Below, piece by piece: positions 11,539 through 29,690 of a DNA stretch of 64,000 nt; the first letter of the stretch is position 1, and every line of letters begins with the position of its first letter. The notes beneath the pieces are model-generated. The model was given only the letters and a program-made list of their open reading frames with translations, was not told the origin of the DNA and ran no database searches. The DNA is taken from contig JAQGIC010000021.1 of assembly GCA_028288725.1 (NCBI GenBank), positions 1-64,000 of the forward strand. The letters are read 5' to 3'. Both the position numbers and the translations under genes were made by a program. This stretch comes from Rhodospirillales bacterium (GTDB lineage: Bacteria; Pseudomonadota; Alphaproteobacteria; ATCC43930; CGMCC-115725).

Positions 11539-12591
11539 GTGTTCGATCCCCATTCAGCCGACCACCGCGGCGGCCTCGCCGACCGTCTGCGGGCGCAATG
11601 GCCGGGCCTGACGGCGGCCGACCTCGATCCGCTGCCGATGAAGGGCGTGGCGCATGATCATCTGGCGCTCCACGCGCTGGGCCTGGTCGTGCGCGTGCCG
11701 CGGCTCAGCCAATGGTCGATGCCGGCCGAGGCGGCGCTGGCCTATCAGGCCGAGGGCTTCCGCCGCCTGGCGCCCAGCGGCGTGACGCCCGGCCTGCAGG
11801 CGGTGCTGCCGCCGGACACCCTGCTGCCGCGCGGGGCGCTGGTCGTCGATTTCGTCGCCGGCCGCGCACCGCGCCTGCCGGACGAGCTGCCGGCGCTCGC
11901 CCGGACCTTGGCGGCGATCCATCGGGTGCCGACGATTCCGCCGCGCCGTCGGCCGCCGCTGGCCGATCACGCGCCGAACCCGATCGCGGCCACGGTCGGC
12001 CTGCTCGACAATCACGCCGGTTTCCTCGACGACGGTGTCCCGCCCGATGTGGCCCGGCTGCTCAGGGACGAGCTGGCCTGGGCTCACGACCTGGCGCGCG
12101 CGGCGGAGAACGCGGCCGTCTCCGCGCCGATCACGCTGGTGGCGACCGACACCCATCCGGGAAACTTTCTCGTCGGCGCCGACGGCATCGCCCGCTTCGT
12201 CGATCTGGAAAAGACGCTCTACGGCTTGCCGGCGATCGATCTGGCCCATGCCACGCTCTATACCTCCACCCAGTGGGACCGCGAGGTGATGGTCACGCTC
12301 GACGCGGACGATCTGCAGCGCTTCCATGGCGCCTATGCCGCAGCGGTCGGCCCGGCCGCCTGGGCGCGCCTGGAGCCCTGGATCGTGCCGGCGCGGCGGC
12401 TCACCTGGCTGCGCACGACGCTGTGGGCCGTGCGGTGGCGGGCGCTGGCGGCGAGCGATCCGGACTGGTCGTCCGACCGGGTCGCGCCCGCGCTGATCGC
12501 CCATATCCAGGGTCGCGTCGCGGACTTCACCGCCCCCGAAACCATCGCGCGGATGCACGCCGAACTGGCGTCCCAGAGCGCGACGATATGA
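11539..12591 (+). CDS. Aminoglycoside phosphotransferase-like kinase, unknown substrate
   Basis: The 350-residue protein has the APH/choline-kinase catalytic part: VATDTHPGNFLVGADGIARF (a variant of the HxDxxxxN loop) and FVDLEKTLYGLPAIDLAHAT (metal-binding Asp, then Glu). The N-terminal half carries LVVDFVAGRAPRLPDELP, like the hinge of APH family kinases. GTG at 11539 starts 4 bp after moaB. A small-molecule kinase role is likely; antibiotic resistance should not be assumed. Its last codons and TGA stop lie within a dispersed palindromic repeat. Confidence 0.78.
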   Translation: MFDPHSADHRGGLADRLRAQWPGLTAADLDPLPMKGVAHDHLALHALGLVVRVPRLSQWSMPAEAALAYQAEGFRRLAPSGVTPGLQAVLPPDTLLPRGALVVDFVAGRAPRLPDELPALARTLAAIHRVPTIPPRRRPPLADHAPNPIAATVGLLDNHAGFLDDGVPPDVARLLRDELAWAHDLARAAENAAVSAPITLVATDTHPGNFLVGADGIARFVDLEKTLYGLPAIDLAHATLYTSTQWDREVMVTLDADDLQRFHGAYAAAVGPAAWARLEPWIVPARRLTWLRTTLWAVRWRALAASDPDWSSDRVAPALIAHIQGRVADFTAPETIARMHAELASQSATI

Positions 12592-12667
12592 GGCCTGCTC
12601 GGCCTCATATCTAAATCGAGCCCGATCCTGACGCTTGCTTCCTAAGCGTTGGGTGAATCGGTCCACC
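12585..12667. repeat. Modular palindromic element, copy R1
   Basis: Module B (gatatgaggcc-N5-ggcctcatatc, 12585-12612) is followed by a variant of module A: CCGATC, then an imperfect stem ctgacgctt/aagcgttgg, then GTGAATCGG. It shares module B with copies R3 and R4 and the variable stem type with R2. The stop codon of the APH-like gene lies inside module B. Confidence 0.8.
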
Positions 12668-15262: not shown

Positions 15263-17743
15263 ATGGCGCTTCGATCGGTTTATCGGGCAATTTTGGCCTG
15301 TGTCCTGTTTCTGGCCAGCCTGACGGCGCAAGCCCAGGGCGTCACAGCCGGCGGCTTCGCCGGAAACTATTACAACAATACGGGATTCTCGGGCGCGCCG
15401 GCGTTTACGCGACGCGACAATCGGATCGATTTCGCCTGGACCGGCAGCGGCATCGGCGGGTCGGGTTCACCCGAATTCGCCGGGGTCGGGCGCCAGGCCT
15501 TCTCCGCCACCTGGTCGGGCACGGTGCTGCCCGCGACGTCGGAGACCTACAGTTTCGCGCTGACGACCCAGGGCGCCGTCACGCTCTATCTCCGGGCGAC
15601 CGGCGCCTCGGCCTGGACCACGCTGATCTCGGACTTCGGCGGCGGCTTGCGCACGCGCCAGGGCTCGGCGGCGCTGACCGCCGGCAAATCCTATCAACTG
15701 CTGCTCTATTACTGGCAATACGCGCCGACCGGTCAGTTGAAGCTGGCCTGGAGCAGCCCGACGCTGCCGATGGCGACGATCGAGGCGGCGACGCCGCTCG
15801 GCGTCAATATCGCCTATGTCAGCCCGAACGACCCGACGCTCACCTTCGCCGATACGGTGATGCAGGCCGCTCCGTTCCAGAAGAATTCGAACTATGCGAA
15901 TTTCAACGCGCCGACGCCGGTCGATGCCCAGGGCTGGCCGACGACGGACGGGACCCTGCCGCTCTGGAGCGTGCCGCGGGAACCGGAAGGCACCTATCTG
16001 CTGCAGTTCACCGGCCAGGCCCAGGTGGTCGACTGGCTGGGCGTCGGCGGCTTCGCGGTCGGCGGCACCGCCTATGGCACAACCTTGCCGGCCGGGGCCG
16101 GCTACAACGCCGCGACCAATATCACGACGGCGCAATGGGTCGTGCCGGCCACGACCAGCACGACGGGCGGTGCCTTCATCGGCTTCGTGGGCACCCAGCG
16201 CACGCCGGATGCGGCGGTCAATTCCGGCATTGCCAACGTCCATCTGATGCGCCCGGTCGCCCGCGGTTCGGCCATCAGCAGCCCGGTCGGCGAGGTCTTC
16301 ACGGCGGATTTCAAGAAGCTGGTCTCGAACTTCACGGCGATCCGCTACATGGATTACCTGGCGACCTATGCCAACAACCAGCGCACCTGGACCGATCGGG
16401 TGAAGCCGACCGACCGCACCCAGTATCAGGCCCAGGCCGGCTATGGCTGGCAGGGCAAGGGTGCCGCCTGGGAATATGCGGTCGAGCTGGCGAACGAGAC
16501 CGGCAAGGACATGTGGATCAATATCCCGCTCCAGACCGACGATGATTATATAACCAAGCTGGCCCAGCTGCTGGCCTATGGCAGCGACGGCAGCAACCCC
16601 TACACGAGCCCCCAGGCGAACCCCGTCTATCCGCCGCTCAACGCCGGTCTCAAGGTCTATGTCGAATATTCGAACGAGATCTGGAACACCTATTTCCCGA
16701 TGTATCACCAGAACGCCGTGCTGGCGCAGCAGGAGGTCGCGGCCGGCGGTTCGCCGCTGAATTTTGACGGCACCACCAACACCACCGTCTGGGCTCATCG
16801 CAGGGTCGCGAAGAAGACGAAGGAGATCAGCGACCTGTTCCGCGCGGTCTGGGGCGATGGCGGCATGATGGGCCGCATCCGTCCGGTGCTGGAATGGCAA
16901 TATGGCGATTCGCTCGGCACCGGCAGCGACGGTCTGAAGTTCCTCGAATTCTTCTATGGCAATGCCGATGGCCAGTCCCATGTCGCGACGCCCTATCCGG
17001 TCAATCACTTCATCTGGGGCGGCGGCGGCGCCTGGTATGCCCTGCCGGTGAATACCGGGGCGAACAGCGTCGCCGGCATCTATGCGTCGGGCCTGGACCT
17101 GTCGCTGCCGAGCACGACCGCCGCCGACGCGGCCTGGACGCTGGCGTATGGCCTCCAGGAACTAGGCTACGAGGGCGGCTTCTATGTCGGCGCCAACAAT
17201 GTCTCGGTCAGCGCTACCGCGGCCCAGACCGCGCTGCAGAACCAGGCCAACCTCGATCCCTCCGCCACGCCGTTCGAGATCCAGAGCATCGACCTGTTCT
17301 TTCAGAAAGGCGGCAATCTGCCGTTGGTGTTCACCACCAGCGGCGAGCAATATGGCGTGGCCTATCCGACCGTCCACGACCAGAACACGCCGAAGATGCA
17401 GGGCATCCTGGCGGCAATCAACGCGCCGCGTCCACCGGCGACCGTCGGCCTGACCGTCCTCGGGACCCTGCCGGTCGCGTCGGCCAATGTCGCCAACGGA
17501 TCGGCGCAGAAGCAGGGCGTGCTGACCAACCCCGGCGACTTCGTCGGCTGGTCGATCAATCTGGCATCCGCCGGGAGCTATACGGTGACGACCGATGCCG
17601 CGTCGCCCAACCAGCAGATCCTGGTCGACGGCGCGCTGGTCGGCACGACCAGCTGGACCGGAACGCTCGCAAGCGGCCTGCATGGCATTCGCATCCGGGC
17701 GGCCGGTGCGGTGACGATCAAGAGCCTGAGCATTATTCACTAG
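15263..17743 (+). CDS. Secreted PA14-domain glycoside-hydrolase-like protein, copy 1
   Basis: The 826-residue protein has a signal peptide (cleavage near TAQAQG, residue 25) and a PA14-like beta-barrel at about 30-180 (GGFAGNYYNNTGFSG, SGTVLPATSETYSFAL). A middle region then leads to a predicted TIM-barrel: VELANETGKDMWINIPLQ, VYVEYSNEIWN (Asn471-Glu472, like the clan GH-A acid/base NE pair) and LGYEGGFYVG (Glu637, candidate second carboxylate). A C-terminal beta-sandwich (about 735-826, ILVDGALVG) resembles a carbohydrate-binding module. It probably acts on an extracellular polysaccharide; the substrate is unknown. A paralog lies downstream. Confidence 0.7.
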   Translation: MALRSVYRAILACVLFLASLTAQAQGVTAGGFAGNYYNNTGFSGAPAFTRRDNRIDFAWTGSGIGGSGSPEFAGVGRQAFSATWSGTVLPATSETYSFALTTQGAVTLYLRATGASAWTTLISDFGGGLRTRQGSAALTAGKSYQLLLYYWQYAPTGQLKLAWSSPTLPMATIEAATPLGVNIAYVSPNDPTLTFADTVMQAAPFQKNSNYANFNAPTPVDAQGWPTTDGTLPLWSVPREPEGTYLLQFTGQAQVVDWLGVGGFAVGGTAYGTTLPAGAGYNAATNITTAQWVVPATTSTTGGAFIGFVGTQRTPDAAVNSGIANVHLMRPVARGSAISSPVGEVFTADFKKLVSNFTAIRYMDYLATYANNQRTWTDRVKPTDRTQYQAQAGYGWQGKGAAWEYAVELANETGKDMWINIPLQTDDDYITKLAQLLAYGSDGSNPYTSPQANPVYPPLNAGLKVYVEYSNEIWNTYFPMYHQNAVLAQQEVAAGGSPLNFDGTTNTTVWAHRRVAKKTKEISDLFRAVWGDGGMMGRIRPVLEWQYGDSLGTGSDGLKFLEFFYGNADGQSHVATPYPVNHFIWGGGGAWYALPVNTGANSVAGIYASGLDLSLPSTTAADAAWTLAYGLQELGYEGGFYVGANNVSVSATAAQTALQNQANLDPSATPFEIQSIDLFFQKGGNLPLVFTTSGEQYGVAYPTVHDQNTPKMQGILAAINAPRPPATVGLTVLGTLPVASANVANGSAQKQGVLTNPGDFVGWSINLASAGSYTVTTDAASPNQQILVDGALVGTTSWTGTLASGLHGIRIRAAGAVTIKSLSIIH

Positions 17744-18086: not shown

Positions 18087-20564
18087 ATGATTTCATGGAT
18101 TCTGTCGTTCCGGGCCTTTCTATTGATATCGCTGTTGGGTTTGCCGGGCGGCGTCGCCTGGGCCCAGGGCGTGACCGCGGGCGGTTTTCTCGGAACCTAC
18201 TATGCCAATGCCGGACTAAGCGGCGCGCCGGCGTTCCAGCGACGCGACGTGCGCATCGATTTCGCCTGGACCGGCACGGCCGCGGGCGGATCGACCACGC
18301 CCGGCTTTGCCGGTGTCGGGGCCAATGGGTTTTCCGCGAGTTGGACCGGCACGGTCATTCCGACCACGACCGAGAGCTATAGTTTCCAGGTCAGCGGCAC
18401 CGGTGCCTTCACCGTCTATGTCCGGCCGACCCATGCGATCGGCTGGACCACGCTCGTCTCGGATTTCGGCGGGGGCGCCCGCACGCGCCAGGGCCAGGCC
18501 GGACTCGTCGCGGGGCAGACCTACGAGCTGCTGATCTATTATTGGCAATATACCGCGGTCGGCGCCCTGCAATTGTCCTGGGGCAGCGCCGGCCAGCCGA
18601 TGCAGCTCGTCCAGTCGGCGGTACCGCTCGGCCTCGACCTGGCCTATACCAGCCCGAACGATCCGGCTCTGATCTTCGCGGATGCCGCCCGTCAGGCGCT
18701 GCCGTTCCAGAAGAACTCGAATTACGCCAGCCTGACCGCGCCGGCCCCGCTCGGACCCGACGACTGGCCCGCCGAGGATGCGACCTTGCCGCTCTGGACC
18801 GAAGCCCGCGAGCCCGAGGGCACGTATCAGCTGAGCTTCGACGGCGCGGCACAGGTGGTCGATTGGCAGGGCGTCGGCCATTTCGCGGTCGGCGGCGTGT
18901 CCTACGGCACGACCTTGCCGGCCGGCGTCGGCTACGATTCCGCCAGCAACCGGACAAGCGCCCAATGGATCATCGGGACGCCGGCGGCCCAGGGCGGGGC
19001 CTATCTGGGGTTCGTCGGCAGCCAGCGGACGCCGACGTCGCCGGTCGGTTCCGGCATTGCCAACGTTCATCTGATGCGGCCGACGGCGCGCGGTTCGGCG
19101 ACCAGCCACCCCACCGGCACGCTGTTCACCAACGACCTGAAGCAGCTGCTGTCCGGCTTCACGCTGATCCGCTTCATGGATTATCTGGCGACCATCGCCA
19201 ACAACCAGCGCCACTGGGCCGACCGGGTGACGCCGCTCGACATCAGCCAATATCGGACCCAGCCGGGTTACGGCTGGCAGGGCAGGGGCGGCGCCTGGGA
19301 ATATGCCGTCGAGCTGGCGAACGAGACCGGCAAGGACATGTGGATCAACATCCCGCTGCAGGTCGACGATGACTACGTCACGCGGCTGGCGCAGCTGCTG
19401 CGCTACGGCGGCGACGGGACCAATCCCTATACGGCACCCCAGGCGGCGCCGGTCTTTCCGCCGCTCAATGCCAATCTCCGGGTCTATGTCGAATATTCCA
19501 ACGAGATCTGGAACGACGCCTTCGTGATGAACCATCAGAATATCGCGCTGGCCCAGCAGGCGGTCGCCGCCGGCGACTCCCCCTTGAATTACGACGGCGC
19601 CACCAGCCCCAGCCTGCTGGGCCAGCGCCGCGCGGCCGAGCGGACCAAGGAGATCGGCGACCTGTTCCGCGCGGTCTGGGGCGACGGCGCCATGCTGACG
19701 CGCATCCGGCCGGTACTGGAATGGCAATATGGCAACGGCCAATCCTGGGCCCAGAACGAGCTGAGTTTTCTCGAGACCTATTGGGGCAATGCCGACGGCC
19801 TGTCCCATGTCGCCACACCCTATCCGGTCAATCGTTTCATCTGGGGCGGCGGCGGCGCCTGGTACGCGACGCTGAACGACACGACCCAGCCGACCATCGC
19901 CGGCATGGTCGCCTCGGGTCTGGCGCTCAATCTGCCGGCGACGACGGTGGCGGACGGCGACTGGGCCCGCGCCTTCGGCTTGCACGAGACCGGCTACGAG
20001 GGCGGCTATTACGTCGGCGAGAGCAATCTGTCGACGGCGCAGAACGCGTTGCAGGACAAGGCCAACATCGACCCGTCCGCCGCCGGGCTGGAAACCCAGA
20101 GCATCGATCTGTTCTATCAGGACGGCGGCGAGTTGCCGGTCGTGTTCACGACCAGCGGCGAGACCTACGGCATGACCTATCCGACCATCCACGAACAGGC
20201 CCTGCCGAAGCTGCAGGCGCTCGCCGCCGCCATGGGGCGGCCCCGGCCGCTGCCGGCGGTCGGTCTGGCGGTGCCGGCGACGCTCAATACCGTCGATGCC
20301 GTCGTCGCGAACGGCGAGGCCGAGTCGCAGGGGCGGCTGACCAAGGCCGGCGACTATGTCGGCTGGACGATCCTGGCGAAGCCCGGCAGCTATACGGTCC
20401 AGACCGACGCTTCCGACGCCCGCGGCCAGCAGATCCTGGTCGACGGCGTGCTGGTCGGGGCGGCGAGCTGGAGCGGGTCGCTCGCGGCCGGTCTCCATGC
20501 CATCCGCATCCGCGCCGGCGGGCCGGGGGTGGCGCTGCAGAATCTGATGGTGACGCAGCCTTAA
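18087..20564 (+). CDS. Secreted PA14-domain glycoside-hydrolase-like protein, copy 2
   Basis: The 825-residue paralog of the preceding gene is collinear over its full length: signal peptide ending near GVAWAQG, PA14-like domain (GGFLGTYYANAGLSG), the identical block VELANETGKDMWINIPLQ, the NE pair in EYSNEIWN (Glu473), TGYEGGYYVG (Glu638) and the C-terminal ILVDGVLVG sandwich. The putative catalytic carboxylates are kept in both copies, so neither looks dead; divergence is spread along the protein, indicating an old duplication. Its TAA overlaps the tail of a chemotaxis-receptor remnant on the other strand. Confidence 0.7.
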   Translation: MISWILSFRAFLLISLLGLPGGVAWAQGVTAGGFLGTYYANAGLSGAPAFQRRDVRIDFAWTGTAAGGSTTPGFAGVGANGFSASWTGTVIPTTTESYSFQVSGTGAFTVYVRPTHAIGWTTLVSDFGGGARTRQGQAGLVAGQTYELLIYYWQYTAVGALQLSWGSAGQPMQLVQSAVPLGLDLAYTSPNDPALIFADAARQALPFQKNSNYASLTAPAPLGPDDWPAEDATLPLWTEAREPEGTYQLSFDGAAQVVDWQGVGHFAVGGVSYGTTLPAGVGYDSASNRTSAQWIIGTPAAQGGAYLGFVGSQRTPTSPVGSGIANVHLMRPTARGSATSHPTGTLFTNDLKQLLSGFTLIRFMDYLATIANNQRHWADRVTPLDISQYRTQPGYGWQGRGGAWEYAVELANETGKDMWINIPLQVDDDYVTRLAQLLRYGGDGTNPYTAPQAAPVFPPLNANLRVYVEYSNEIWNDAFVMNHQNIALAQQAVAAGDSPLNYDGATSPSLLGQRRAAERTKEIGDLFRAVWGDGAMLTRIRPVLEWQYGNGQSWAQNELSFLETYWGNADGLSHVATPYPVNRFIWGGGGAWYATLNDTTQPTIAGMVASGLALNLPATTVADGDWARAFGLHETGYEGGYYVGESNLSTAQNALQDKANIDPSAAGLETQSIDLFYQDGGELPVVFTTSGETYGMTYPTIHEQALPKLQALAAAMGRPRPLPAVGLAVPATLNTVDAVVANGEAESQGRLTKAGDYVGWTILAKPGSYTVQTDASDARGQQILVDGVLVGAASWSGSLAAGLHAIRIRAGGPGVALQNLMVTQP

Positions 20565-20655
20565 GCCGTATACCCGACCCGGACCACGCCCCATTTCCGG
20601 CCGCCGATGCGGATCGGGACCGAGATGTCCTTCACCAGCTGGAACCGGTCGCCAG
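20561..20655 (-). pseudogene. C-terminal remnant of a methyl-accepting chemotaxis protein
   Basis: The minus strand reads GDRFQLVKDISVPIRIGG, then RKWGVVRVGYTA and a TAA. This matches the conserved tail of cytoplasmic-type chemotaxis receptors, whose C termini read like KDVSVPI...GRHWG...RVGY. Upstream (higher coordinates) it is replaced directly by element R3 and then, in the same orientation, by what looks like the N terminus of the same gene. The signalling hairpin and everything between are gone. Confidence 0.6.
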
Positions 20656-20772
20656 GCCTAGAGCCTGATCCGATCAAACCAACTCGGTTTGATCGGTGAA
20701 TCAGTCTCTAAATATTTGATTTAAAGGGCGATTCAGATATGAGGCCGAGCAGGCCTCATCATCGCGCCCTAG
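20656..20772. repeat. Modular palindromic element, copy R3, inside a deleted gene
   Basis: It starts at CTAG (20658) and continues GAGCCTGATCCGATC. The stem is ccgatcaaacc-N5-ggtttgatcgg, followed by GTGAATCAGTCTCTAAATA and a TTTGATTTA linker, then module B (attcagatatgaggcc-N5-ggcctcat) with a decayed right arm. It is collinear with the reverse complement of R4 at 27149-27265, differing mainly in the stem and loop bases. Confidence 0.85.
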
Positions 20773-20832
20773 GCCGCCCAGCTCGCGGGCGAGGTCGCGC
20801 AGACTGGCGTCGGAGCTGGAAACAATGGACAT
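20762..20832 (-). pseudogene. Probable N-terminal remnant of the same chemotaxis-receptor gene
   Basis: ATG at 20832 with GGGAG upstream gives MSIVSSSDASLRDLARELGG and then LGRDD, resembling the start of soluble chemotaxis receptors. It then runs into module B of element R3 and stops at a TGA inside module A. Together with the C-terminal remnant it indicates one gene whose interior was deleted, with the palindromic element at the join. The N-terminal match is weaker than the C-terminal one. Confidence 0.45.
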
Positions 20833-20957
20833 GCCGCGGCGCTCCCGATGATTTCCATGGTTTTGCCATGAGTGTCATCGGGGCTGGGCGACGGGGTCAA
20901 GCCCGTCACGACAGAGAGGTTGAAAGGACGAAGGGCGATGCGAACCGCGACCGGAGC

Positions 20958-21290
20958 CTAACCCAGCGTGCGGCCGCCCCGATGGCGCCGCACCGGCGCC
21001 GCTGCCAGGCCCTTGAACAGGCCGCCACCGGGCAGCATCTCGTTCAGGTAGCGCCGGCTACGCTCCCCTTCGGTCATCATGGTGCCGCCCAGCCGCTCGG
21101 CCAATGCGGACCCGAGCCAGGACGCGAGCACGTAGCTCGCGATCGACGAAAGAATGAGGGCGGGTGCCACCGAGAAGTCGGGAAATACCGCATGCGACAA
21201 GGCAGCGGAACCGGCTGTGATGAGCAGAGTGGCGAAAATCTCGGCGAGGCGCTGAAGTGGCGTCTTATAGACGGCTAATCGATCCGACAT
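20958..21290 (-). CDS. Hypothetical small membrane protein
   Basis: The 110-residue protein (MSDRLAVYKTPLQRLAEIF) has two hydrophobic helices at about 20-40 and 44-62, then a polar, basic C-terminal tail (RRYLNEMLPGGGLFKGLAAA). No family is recognised. It is divergent from rnhB, with a 211-bp gap. The basic tail suggests cytoplasmic exposure of both termini. Confidence 0.6.
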   Translation of the reverse strand: MSDRLAVYKTPLQRLAEIFATLLITAGSAALSHAVFPDFSVAPALILSSIASYVLASWLGSALAERLGGTMMTEGERSRRYLNEMLPGGGLFKGLAAAPVRRHRGGRTLG

Positions 21291-24742: not shown

Positions 24743-26427
<1,685 letters not shown>

Positions 26428-26522
26428 CCCTTGTATGCGGTGGGCAACACGCGCCCTGCTTTACAGGCGCCGCCGAAGTTGCGATAAATACCGTATGACC
26501 GGTCGTTTTGAATTAGTCAAGG
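26428..26522. promoter_or_regulatory. Divergent promoter with TetR-type operator candidate
   Basis: The 95-bp gap between the NTF2-like gene and the tetR-type gene holds ATGACCGGTCGT at 26495-26506, a near-perfect palindrome (core GACCGGTC) of the size and type bound by TetR dimers. Its position between divergent genes suggests control of both. Confidence 0.55.
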
Positions 26523-27149
26523 ATGCTTGAAATGAGCCCTGCCTCATCGTCCAGACGAGGCCCGAAGCCGAAGGTCGGCACCCGCGACGGCCTCGTGCGG
26601 GCGGGCCTGACGCTGCTCCATGCCGAGGGCTATGCCGCGACGGGCATCCAGGCCATCGTCGAGAGCGTGGGCGTGCCCAAGGGCTCGTTCTACAATCACT
26701 TCGCCAGCAAGGAGGCGTTCGGTGCGGAAGTGATCGACGCTTATTTCGAGGGGGGGCGGGATCGGCTGCGTGCCTTCCTCGCCAGGACTGACCTCAAGCC
26801 GCTGGACCGTCTGAAGGCCTATTTCGACGATCGGATCGCGGCGCTTCGGGCCGGCGGGTTCGTCAAGGGCTGCCTCCTCGGCAATTTCAGCGCGGAGGTC
26901 GCTGATCACAGCGCGCTCATGCGCGAGCATCTGGTCGCGCATTTCGAAACCTGGGGCGGTCTCTTCGAGGATTGCATTGCGGAGGCCCAGGAACAGAAGG
27001 CCGTGGGCGACCAGTTCCCCGCGGCGTTGCTGGCGCGCTTCATCCTGAACAGTTGGGAGGGCGCATTGCTGCGCATGCGCGCGGAAAAGAGCGAGGCTCC
27101 GCTGACCGAGTTCCGCCAAGTCTTGTTCGGCAGGCTGCTCACCCCCTAG
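26523..27149 (+). CDS. TetR/AcrR-family transcriptional regulator
   Basis: The 208-residue protein has the TetR helix-turn-helix at residues about 20-65: LVRAGLTLLHAEGYAATGIQ, AIVESVGVPKGSFYNHFASK. The C-terminal ligand domain (VKGCLLGNFSAEVADHS) resembles the subgroup whose members sense aldehydes or quaternary compounds, but the ligand cannot be assigned. It is divergent from the exported NTF2-like gene. The TAG stop is the first base triplet of element R4. Confidence 0.9.
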   Translation: MLEMSPASSSRRGPKPKVGTRDGLVRAGLTLLHAEGYAATGIQAIVESVGVPKGSFYNHFASKEAFGAEVIDAYFEGGRDRLRAFLARTDLKPLDRLKAYFDDRIAALRAGGFVKGCLLGNFSAEVADHSALMREHLVAHFETWGGLFEDCIAEAQEQKAVGDQFPAALLARFILNSWEGALLRMRAEKSEAPLTEFRQVLFGRLLTP

Positions 27150-27265
27150 AGTGCGATTCAGATATGAGGCCTGCTCGGCCTCATATCTGAATCGCACTCT
27201 AAATCAAATATTTAGAGACTGATTCACCGATCAAGCCAAGCAGGCTTGATCGGATCAGGCTCTAG
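27149..27265. repeat. Modular palindromic element, copy R4 (most complete)
   Basis: Module B is a perfect inverted repeat with 23-bp arms (gagtgcgattcagatatgag start) around loop TGCTC, 27149-27199. Module A follows in reverse orientation: linker taaatcaaatatttagagac, TGATTCAC, then stem ccgatcaagcc-N5-ggcttgatcgg, and GATCAGGCTCTAG. It is collinear with R3 read on the other strand. Confidence 0.88.
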
Positions 27266-27352
27266 GCTGCGACGCCTAGCCACTTCCCTCTGGCGTTCGA
27301 AGCTGTAAGGTCGGGGGACGCAACGCAGCATCCTCAAGACGGAAGAGAACTC

Positions 27353-29677
27353 ATGCCAGATGATTCGACGATCGGGCGTTTCGGCAGCGGGCGGGAGGTC
27401 AAGCGGATCGAGGACGCGGCCCTGCTGGCCGGTGCCGGGCGCTTTGCCGACGATGTCTCGCATTCCGAGCAGAGCTACCTGGTCTTCCTGCGCTCGCCCC
27501 ATGCGCATGCGCGCATCCTGTCGATCGATGCCACCGAAGCGCTCGCGATGCCGGGCGTGGTCGCCGTCCTGACCGGCGCCGATCTGGTCGCCGCCGGGGT
27601 GAAGCCGCTGCCGCTCGCGCCGATGTTCCAGCGGCCCGACGGTTCGCCCGGGGCGACGCCGCTCAGGCCCGGCCTCGCGCACGAGACGGTGCGTTTCGTC
27701 GGCGAGGCGGTCGCCGCCCTCGTCGCCCGGACGCGCGAGCAGGCGAAGGACGCGGTCGAGGCCATCCTGGTCGAGTACGAGGAACTGCCCATCGTGACCG
27801 AGCTGACGCAGGCGACCGCCGACGGCGCGCCGCTCGTCTGGCCGGCCGCCACCGGCAATATCGCGGCCCAGATGGTCCATGGCGACGCGGCCGCGACCGA
27901 TGCCGCCTTCGCCGCCGCCGCCCATGTCGTGACGCTCGACGTGGTCAACCAGCGCCTGGCGCCGACGCCGCTCGAGCCGCGCAGTTCGCTCGCCGAGTAT
28001 GATGCGGCGGGCGATCGGCTGACGCTCCGCCTGTCGACCCAGATGCCGTCCGGAGCGCGCGACACGCTGTGCGATGCGGTGTTCGGCATCCCGAAGGACA
28101 GGATCCGCGTCGTGGTCGACGATGTCGGCGGCGGTTTCGGCATGAAGACCGGGCTTTATGCCGAGGATATCGTCGTGGCCCATGCCGCGCGCCACTTGAA
28201 GCGCACGATCAAATGGACGGCCGAGCGCATCGAGGAATTCCTGGCGGCGACCCATGGGCGCGACGTCGAAAGCCATGCCGAGCTTGCGCTCGATCCCGAC
28301 GGCCGGGTGCTGGGCTATCGCGTCCGTTCGCTCTGCAACATGGGCGCCTATGCCGGCACGTCGGGCATCATCATCCAGCTGATGATCGGGCCCTGGGTCA
28401 CGACCAGCATCTACGACATCCGGACCATCCATCTCGAACTCAACGCGGTGCTGACCAATACCGCGCCGACCGCCGCCTATCGCGGCGCCGGCCGGCCGGA
28501 AGCGATCTACCTGATCGAGCGCCTGTTCGACGTCGCGGCCCGCAAGCTGGGGCTCGATCCGGCCGAAATCCGGCGCCGCAACCTGATCGACCCGGCGCAG
28601 ATGCCCTATACGAACGCGATGGGGCAGGTCTACGACAGCGGCAAATTCGGCTCGATCCTCGAACAGGGCATCGATCTCGCGAACTGGCGGGACTTTCCGG
28701 CGCGCGAGGCTCAATCCCGCGCCCGCGGCAAACTGCGCGGCCGGGGCCTCGCCTCGTTCCTCGAATGGACCGGCGGCAACGCGTTCGAGGAGCGGGTCAC
28801 GGTCGCGGTCTCCGGCGACGGTGAGATCGAGGTCTATGCCTCGACCATGCCGATGGGCCAGGGCATCGCGACCTCTTACGCGCAGCTCGTCGTCGACGTG
28901 TTCGGCGTGCCGATCGAGAAGATCCGCATCGTCATGGGCGACACGGATCGCGGCTCAGGCTTCGGCAGCGCCGGTTCACGCTCGCTCTTTACGGCGGGGT
29001 CGGCGATCAACCATGCCTCGGAACGTGCGGTCGCGACCGGGCGCGACCTCGCGGGCGACGCGCTCGAGGCGGCCGCGGTCGATATCGAATATCTCGAGGG
29101 CGTGTTCCAGGTCGCCGGCACCGATCGGCGGATCGGGCTGTTCGAGCTTGCGGCGCGCCAGCCCGATCGCCGCATCTTCATCGATGCGACCAGCAAGGTG
29201 AACGGGCCCAGCTGGCCGAACGGCTGCCATATCTCGGAGGTCGAAGTGGACCCGGAAACCGGTGTGGTCGACATCGTCTCCTACGTCTCGGTGAACGACG
29301 TCGGCCGGGTCGTCAATCCGATGATCGTGCGCGGGCAGCTCGATGGCGGGGCCGTGCAGGGCATCGGCCAGGCCTTGGGCGAGCACATGCGCTATGACCC
29401 GGCCTCCGGCCAGGCGATCACGGCGAGCCTGATGGATTACGCGATGCCTCGGGCCGATATCGTGCGCGACTTCGTCCATGTGCTCGACCAGTCGACGCCG
29501 TGTCTCAACAACCCGCTCGGTGTCAAGGGCGTGGGCGAACTGGGCACGATCGGCGCCACGCCGGCCGTGGTCAACGCGGTTGCCGACGCGCTCGTCCGCG
29601 CCGGCCGCGTCGACAGTGCCGACCGGCTGCAGATGCCGCTGACGCCCGACAAGGTGTGGCGGGCGCTAAATATGTGA
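27353..29677 (+). CDS. CoxL-like molybdenum hydroxylase large subunit (form II)
   Basis: The 774-residue xanthine-oxidase-family molybdopterin subunit has the N-terminal a/b-hammerhead with RIEDAALLAGAGRFADDV, the active-site loop AYRGAGRPEA at about 375-384 (the AYRGAGR form II motif, unlike the AYRCSFR of true CO dehydrogenase), and the C-terminal GVKGVGELGTIGATPA with the catalytic Glu. Family enzymes need an FAD (M) and a 2Fe-2S (S) subunit; neither gene is adjacent, so the partners must be elsewhere. The last codons and TGA fall in a repeat remnant. Confidence 0.9.
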   Translation: MPDDSTIGRFGSGREVKRIEDAALLAGAGRFADDVSHSEQSYLVFLRSPHAHARILSIDATEALAMPGVVAVLTGADLVAAGVKPLPLAPMFQRPDGSPGATPLRPGLAHETVRFVGEAVAALVARTREQAKDAVEAILVEYEELPIVTELTQATADGAPLVWPAATGNIAAQMVHGDAAATDAAFAAAAHVVTLDVVNQRLAPTPLEPRSSLAEYDAAGDRLTLRLSTQMPSGARDTLCDAVFGIPKDRIRVVVDDVGGGFGMKTGLYAEDIVVAHAARHLKRTIKWTAERIEEFLAATHGRDVESHAELALDPDGRVLGYRVRSLCNMGAYAGTSGIIIQLMIGPWVTTSIYDIRTIHLELNAVLTNTAPTAAYRGAGRPEAIYLIERLFDVAARKLGLDPAEIRRRNLIDPAQMPYTNAMGQVYDSGKFGSILEQGIDLANWRDFPAREAQSRARGKLRGRGLASFLEWTGGNAFEERVTVAVSGDGEIEVYASTMPMGQGIATSYAQLVVDVFGVPIEKIRIVMGDTDRGSGFGSAGSRSLFTAGSAINHASERAVATGRDLAGDALEAAAVDIEYLEGVFQVAGTDRRIGLFELAARQPDRRIFIDATSKVNGPSWPNGCHISEVEVDPETGVVDIVSYVSVNDVGRVVNPMIVRGQLDGGAVQGIGQALGEHMRYDPASGQAITASLMDYAMPRADIVRDFVHVLDQSTPCLNNPLGVKGVGELGTIGATPAVVNAVADALVRAGRVDSADRLQMPLTPDKVWRALNM

Positions 29678-29690
29678 TTTAGGGGGCGAT
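29667..29690. repeat. Partial modular element, R6 (linker only)
   Basis: TAAATATGTGATTTAGGGGG followed by CGAT matches the module A/B linker of R3 and R4 (taaatatttgatttagagtgcgat) with three or four differences. It contains the stop codon of the CoxL-like gene and abuts the stop of the convergent GNAT gene. Confidence 0.45.

Follow-up and report, generated by a model that had tools for sequence, protein, structure and literature searches.

When a gene has collapsed to its two ends and a short palindromic element lies between them, was the element the cause of the deletion or a later arrival? This question is raised by a locus in the window, the 64,000-nucleotide stretch of a Rhodospirillales bacterium genome analyzed here, where an earlier note had recognized a start-like N terminus and a chemotaxis-receptor tail pointing in the same direction. 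The two are indeed ends of one gene: on the minus strand, 20772-20832 and 20561-20653 correspond to the first ~22 and the last 30 codons of a single cytoplasmic methyl-accepting chemotaxis protein (MCP). The locus was read against G001, the sole congeneric genome compared, which was found by a region search over 60 related genomes. Its features, in window coordinates, are as follows.

18087-20564, plus strand: convergent PA14-domain gene (Pfam PF07691), whose stop codon overlaps that of the receptor
20561-20653, minus strand: C-terminal receptor remnant, GDRFQLVKDISVPIRIGGRKWGVVRVGYTA followed by the stop; 27 of 30 residues are those of the G001 ortholog
20652-20653, minus strand: 2-bp overlap GG at the deletion join, with which the N-terminal piece ends (..GGCCTGG) and the tail begins (GGCGACC..)
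20652-20658, minus strand: GGCCTGG, seven bases on the far side of the element that extend the N-terminal coding sequence as far as the deletion join; G001 has GGCGGCCTCGGCCTGGAAG here
20659-20660: left-end TA copy of the element, part of CTAG 20658-20661
20661-20769: two-hairpin MITE-like element R3, TA copies excluded; 109 bp, multicopy, folding with z = -8.3
20770-20771: right-end TA copy of the element (plus strand), part of CTAG 20769-20772
20772-20832, minus strand: N-terminal receptor remnant, MSIVSSSDASLRDLARELGG..., with its start codon at 20830-20832; 49 of 61 bases are those of G001 L061:11650-11710

The G001 ortholog (L061:11650-13038) contains, like known cytoplasmic MCPs, an MCP signalling domain (Pfam PF00015, E 2e-30), which the window remnant has lost whole, both ends alone remaining. 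BLASTN aligns the tail (20571-20653) to this gene with 89% DNA identity (E 1e-24) and the N-terminal side (20768-20847) with 79% (E 4e-12), the latter homology reaching 20847, upstream of the start codon; at the protein level, the N terminus of the remnant shares 15 of 20 residues with the ortholog. The order and orientation of the two ends are those found in G001, and the paralogs in both genomes score far lower against the remnants than the ortholog does. Both remnants are thus orthologous to one intact MCP gene. No intact ortholog was found in the window's genome, which has only two paralogs (46% and 43% identity to the G001 protein), and a search for closer relatives in other genera returned, apart from one short segment, nothing but distant MCPs with identities no higher than 51%. 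Because the sister species has an intact ortholog, the window's genome has none and both remnants match, the comparison supports the interpretation of the locus as a deletion pseudogene that lost nearly the whole gene, in agreement with the internal deletion proposed in the earlier note. The tail differs from G001 at 15 bases, 11 of them at third codon positions, a pattern suggesting that it was under protein constraint until recently.

A related locus with an intact gene was thus found, in that the G001 gene encodes a full 463 residues and matches at both ends, but this gene is without the element and is located elsewhere, at a distance of 6 kb and flanked by an asparaginase gene and tctA. 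The PA14 and rnhB-side matches of G001 are separated by ~14 bp, and the asparaginase-MCP-TctA segment of that genome was not found in the window's genome. Since the G001 gene is not at the orthologous place and its segment was not found here, the receptor gene was relocated, or separately gained, in one lineage; with one relative compared, its ancestral position is not polarizable. In the window, the minus-strand receptor stop codon TAA (20561-20563) overlaps the TAA (20562-20564) of the PA14-domain gene, which is the second of a tandem pair (15263-17743 and 18087-20564). G001 has one such gene. It shares 81% identity with the first copy and 72% with the second, but it resembles the second in its C-terminal VTQ end and in its position beside the rnhB side.

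The earlier note had the element at the join, as the only thing separating the two ends. The comparison with G001 corrects this picture. The intact N-terminal coding sequence of G001 is GAGCTGGGCGGCCTCGGCCTGGAAGTG, and the minus strand of the window reads GAGCTGGGCGGCCTA, then the element, then TAGGCCTGGCGACCGGTTCCAG. Removal in silico of the element and one TA yields GAGCTGGGCGGCCTAGGCCTGGCGACCGGTTCCAG and restores GGCGGCC-TA-GGCCTGG/CGACCGG (slash at the join), in which the N-terminal GGCGGCCTAGGCCTGG meets the tail GGCGACCGG with a GG overlap and with all bases accounted for. The tail matches G001 from exactly that base on, and the G001 tail sequence accounts for none of the seven bases at 20652-20658 except the GG overlap. 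Because these seven bases past the element continue the receptor's N-terminal sequence, the deletion join lies at 20652-20653, 5-7 bp outside the element, a placement that rests on a short stretch; the chance of the 6-7 bases matching the N-terminal continuation is ~2e-4 to 7e-4 at the base composition here. Seven N-terminal-derived bases therefore stand between element and tail, and the endpoint of the deletion, rather than coinciding with the end of the element, is found 7 bp beyond it. The portion of the G001 gene missing in the window amounts to ~1,228 bp, which is 1 mod 3 and shifts the frame, and the reading frame before insertion of the element would be MSIVSSSDASLRDLARELGGLGLATGSSW, closed by a stop codon.

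The same seven bases bear on two explanations in which the locus is not the product of a simple deletion within one gene. If two copies of the element near the gene ends had recombined, deleting what lay between them and leaving one copy exactly at the join, YTAG ends would be expected on both sides too, and the element family is abundant; however, the right flank should then be derived from the tail, and it instead carries 7 bp of N-terminal sequence. We reject this recombination on the strength of that continuation, unless the match arose by chance, and regard it as very improbable. An assembly chimera, in which the assembler joined two unrelated places sharing a repeat, has the draft state of the genome (146 contigs) and the high copy number of the element in its favor, but both flanks derive from one gene and are correctly ordered and oriented, the element spans no more than 109 bp and the N-terminal sequence continues for seven bases across it; this too we consider highly unlikely.

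As single-stranded DNA, the element forms two hairpins (-32 kcal/mol, z = -8.3). Its copies run TAGAGCCTGATC...GCGCTCTA, and most of them have the imperfect terminal inverted repeat TAGAGC[C/G][T/C]GAT at both ends, with the internal hairpins dominating. TA is present on both sides, with C or T before and G after (YTA...TAG), in 33 of the 43 copies for which both ends are readable. One copy lies in the lepB stop codon (L142), where G001 has GACTAG uninterrupted. The ends of the copies and this one conserved CTAG in the sister genome show insertion at TA, and they fit insertion into YTAG with TA duplication; the empty sites at collinear loci are mostly in diverged spacers, and the duplication is directly readable at one site, the lepB stop. 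From base composition, 199 CTAG sites would be expected in the window, but 18 are found, several of them being ends of the element; this ~11-fold depletion limits the possible landing places of the element.

In the window's genome we found at least 40 significant copies and ~220 first-look candidates, and the true copy number is probably ~200. The element was not detected in 60 relatives (G001 and 59 others), nor in the 2.2 Mb of G001 sequence checked directly. It is short, non-coding and present in high copy, with terminal inverted repeats and a target-site duplication, the properties of a MITE; we call it MITE-like because a parent IS was not found among the families checked in this genome, its ends being absent from the IS630 copy (L137) and from the IS5/IS427-like copies (L253-L259), and the parent may have been lost. 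A search of 20500-20960 against Rfam gave no hit exceeding the gathering score of any family. The palindromic MITE-like family, with its YTAG/TA target, seems to have undergone expansion within a single alphaproteobacterial lineage. A half element, consisting of the right hairpin only, is found at window 12572-12618 (87% identity over 47 bp).

Elements of this general description are known from other bacteria. The Bru-RS repeats are palindromes of ~100 bp, and the element resembles them as a ~100-bp palindromic repeat in an alphaproteobacterium, a likeness of description in which no kinship is claimed. In Brucella, IS711 duplicates TA within YTAR and favors the Bru-RS palindromes as insertion sites (PMC2266754). 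This is paralleled here by an IS427-like IS (IS5 family, PF13340/PF01609) at L257:862-1819 (G000:C67), which has 20-bp perfect terminal repeats, ACAGCGTTGACATTC..., and is inserted precisely within the CTAG end of one copy of the element. MITEPsy1 has CTAG or YTAA as its target, with a 4-nt duplication (PMC3189936; reviewed in PMC10969869). It and the present element, likened by description and not by sequence, are both ~100 bp long, non-coding and present in high copy, with terminal inverted repeats, a short target duplication and a CTAG-type target, but MITEPsy1 duplicates 4 nt whereas the flanks here fit a duplication of TA.

Do copies of the element cause deletions elsewhere? Because the family is missing from G001, the orthologous sites there can be used as empty sites. 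Nine other copies have both flanks collinear with G001 (window 32996, L003, L004, L009, L014 at 866, L018, L022, L028 at 1498, and L142), and at eight of these no G001 sequence has been lost at the element. At the ninth, L142:1587-2254 (G000:C17), the element in the lepB stop codon has kept the stop, and a 156-aa gene beyond it replaces the transporter gene found there in G001. Flanking losses do not recur at the other copies, and in this small sample (n = 9, with no control set of random spacers) there is no sign of a general deletion effect. The role in deletion, active or promoting, that the earlier note suggested for such elements is thus not supported: receptor N-terminal sequence runs on for 7 bp past the element, the insertion at the receptor locus is a clean, TA-duplicating one, and eight of the nine copies elsewhere are lossless relative to G001. 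Two segments not in G001 were seen in association with the element: ~0.8 kb at L022:695-1619 (G000:C9), with the element at its right edge, and a 3.8-kb segment at window 25904-29690, in place of which G001 has 16 bp. Within the latter lies an element copy (27147-27266), and the segment's end at 29690 adjoins a 25-bp element fragment (29666-29690).

On this evidence we think the locus is probably a receptor pseudogene with a later MITE-like passenger, and we likewise favor, with fair confidence, a deletion that came first or was at least independent of the element. A cytoplasmic MCP gene of ~463 codons lost ~1,228 bp by an illegitimate deletion at a short overlap (GG), a mechanism that we infer from the join. 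Sequence comparison shows that codon ~23 was thereby fused, out of frame, to the last ~30 codons, leaving a 29-codon dead frame. The 109-bp non-autonomous palindromic element, which is spreading in this genome through TA-duplicating insertions at YTAG, would then have inserted at a CTAG in what was left of the N-terminal part, 7 bp away from the join; we infer that the insertion was the later event, and the endpoint of the deletion did not come from the element. The Leu codon that preceded the insertion must have been CTA, which makes up 1.9% of Leu codons here and corresponds to CTC in G001, and this rare codon fits, weakly, with relaxed selection before the insertion. MITEs have been noted in intergenic regions and pseudogenes (review PMC10969869). 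We prefer deletion first because MITEs are generally found in non-coding DNA or pseudogenes, because the endpoint is off the element and because the target codon is rare, none of these being decisive. The proximity of the join counts against this preference as a mild coincidence, a join within 7 bp of the element having a ~4% chance if its position in the ~394-bp interval were random.

That proximity, merely 7 bp, and the strong single-stranded fold of the element speak instead for the opposite order, in which the element inactivated an intact gene at codon ~21 and a later deletion started 7 bp beyond it, either unrelated to the element or favored by its hairpins, by way of slippage during replication or of breakage at the hairpin. 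The final sequence is identical under either order, and with a single congeneric genome compared the order is not polarizable. However, transposon-favored deletions normally begin at the transposon end, flanking loss is not seen at eight of the nine comparable copies, and the rare CTA target fits a gene already under relaxed selection; we therefore hold insertion first to be unlikely. Its more specific form, in which hairpins of the already inserted element promoted a short-homology deletion nearby, starting a few bases outside the element, is in our view improbable.

Taken as a receptor pseudogene with a later passenger, the find is an ordinary pseudogene with an ordinary passenger, and short palindromic elements with a TA/CTAG target are already known. 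If the element did come first and its hairpins promoted the deletion, the locus would represent a MITE-linked gene collapse that left the element and its target duplication intact. The locus shows how a deletion can be wrongly attributed to a mobile element lying beside it, and the pre-insertion join deduced by comparison with the sister species separates the two events. It is in addition a record of a palindromic MITE-like family whose target is YTAG/TA.
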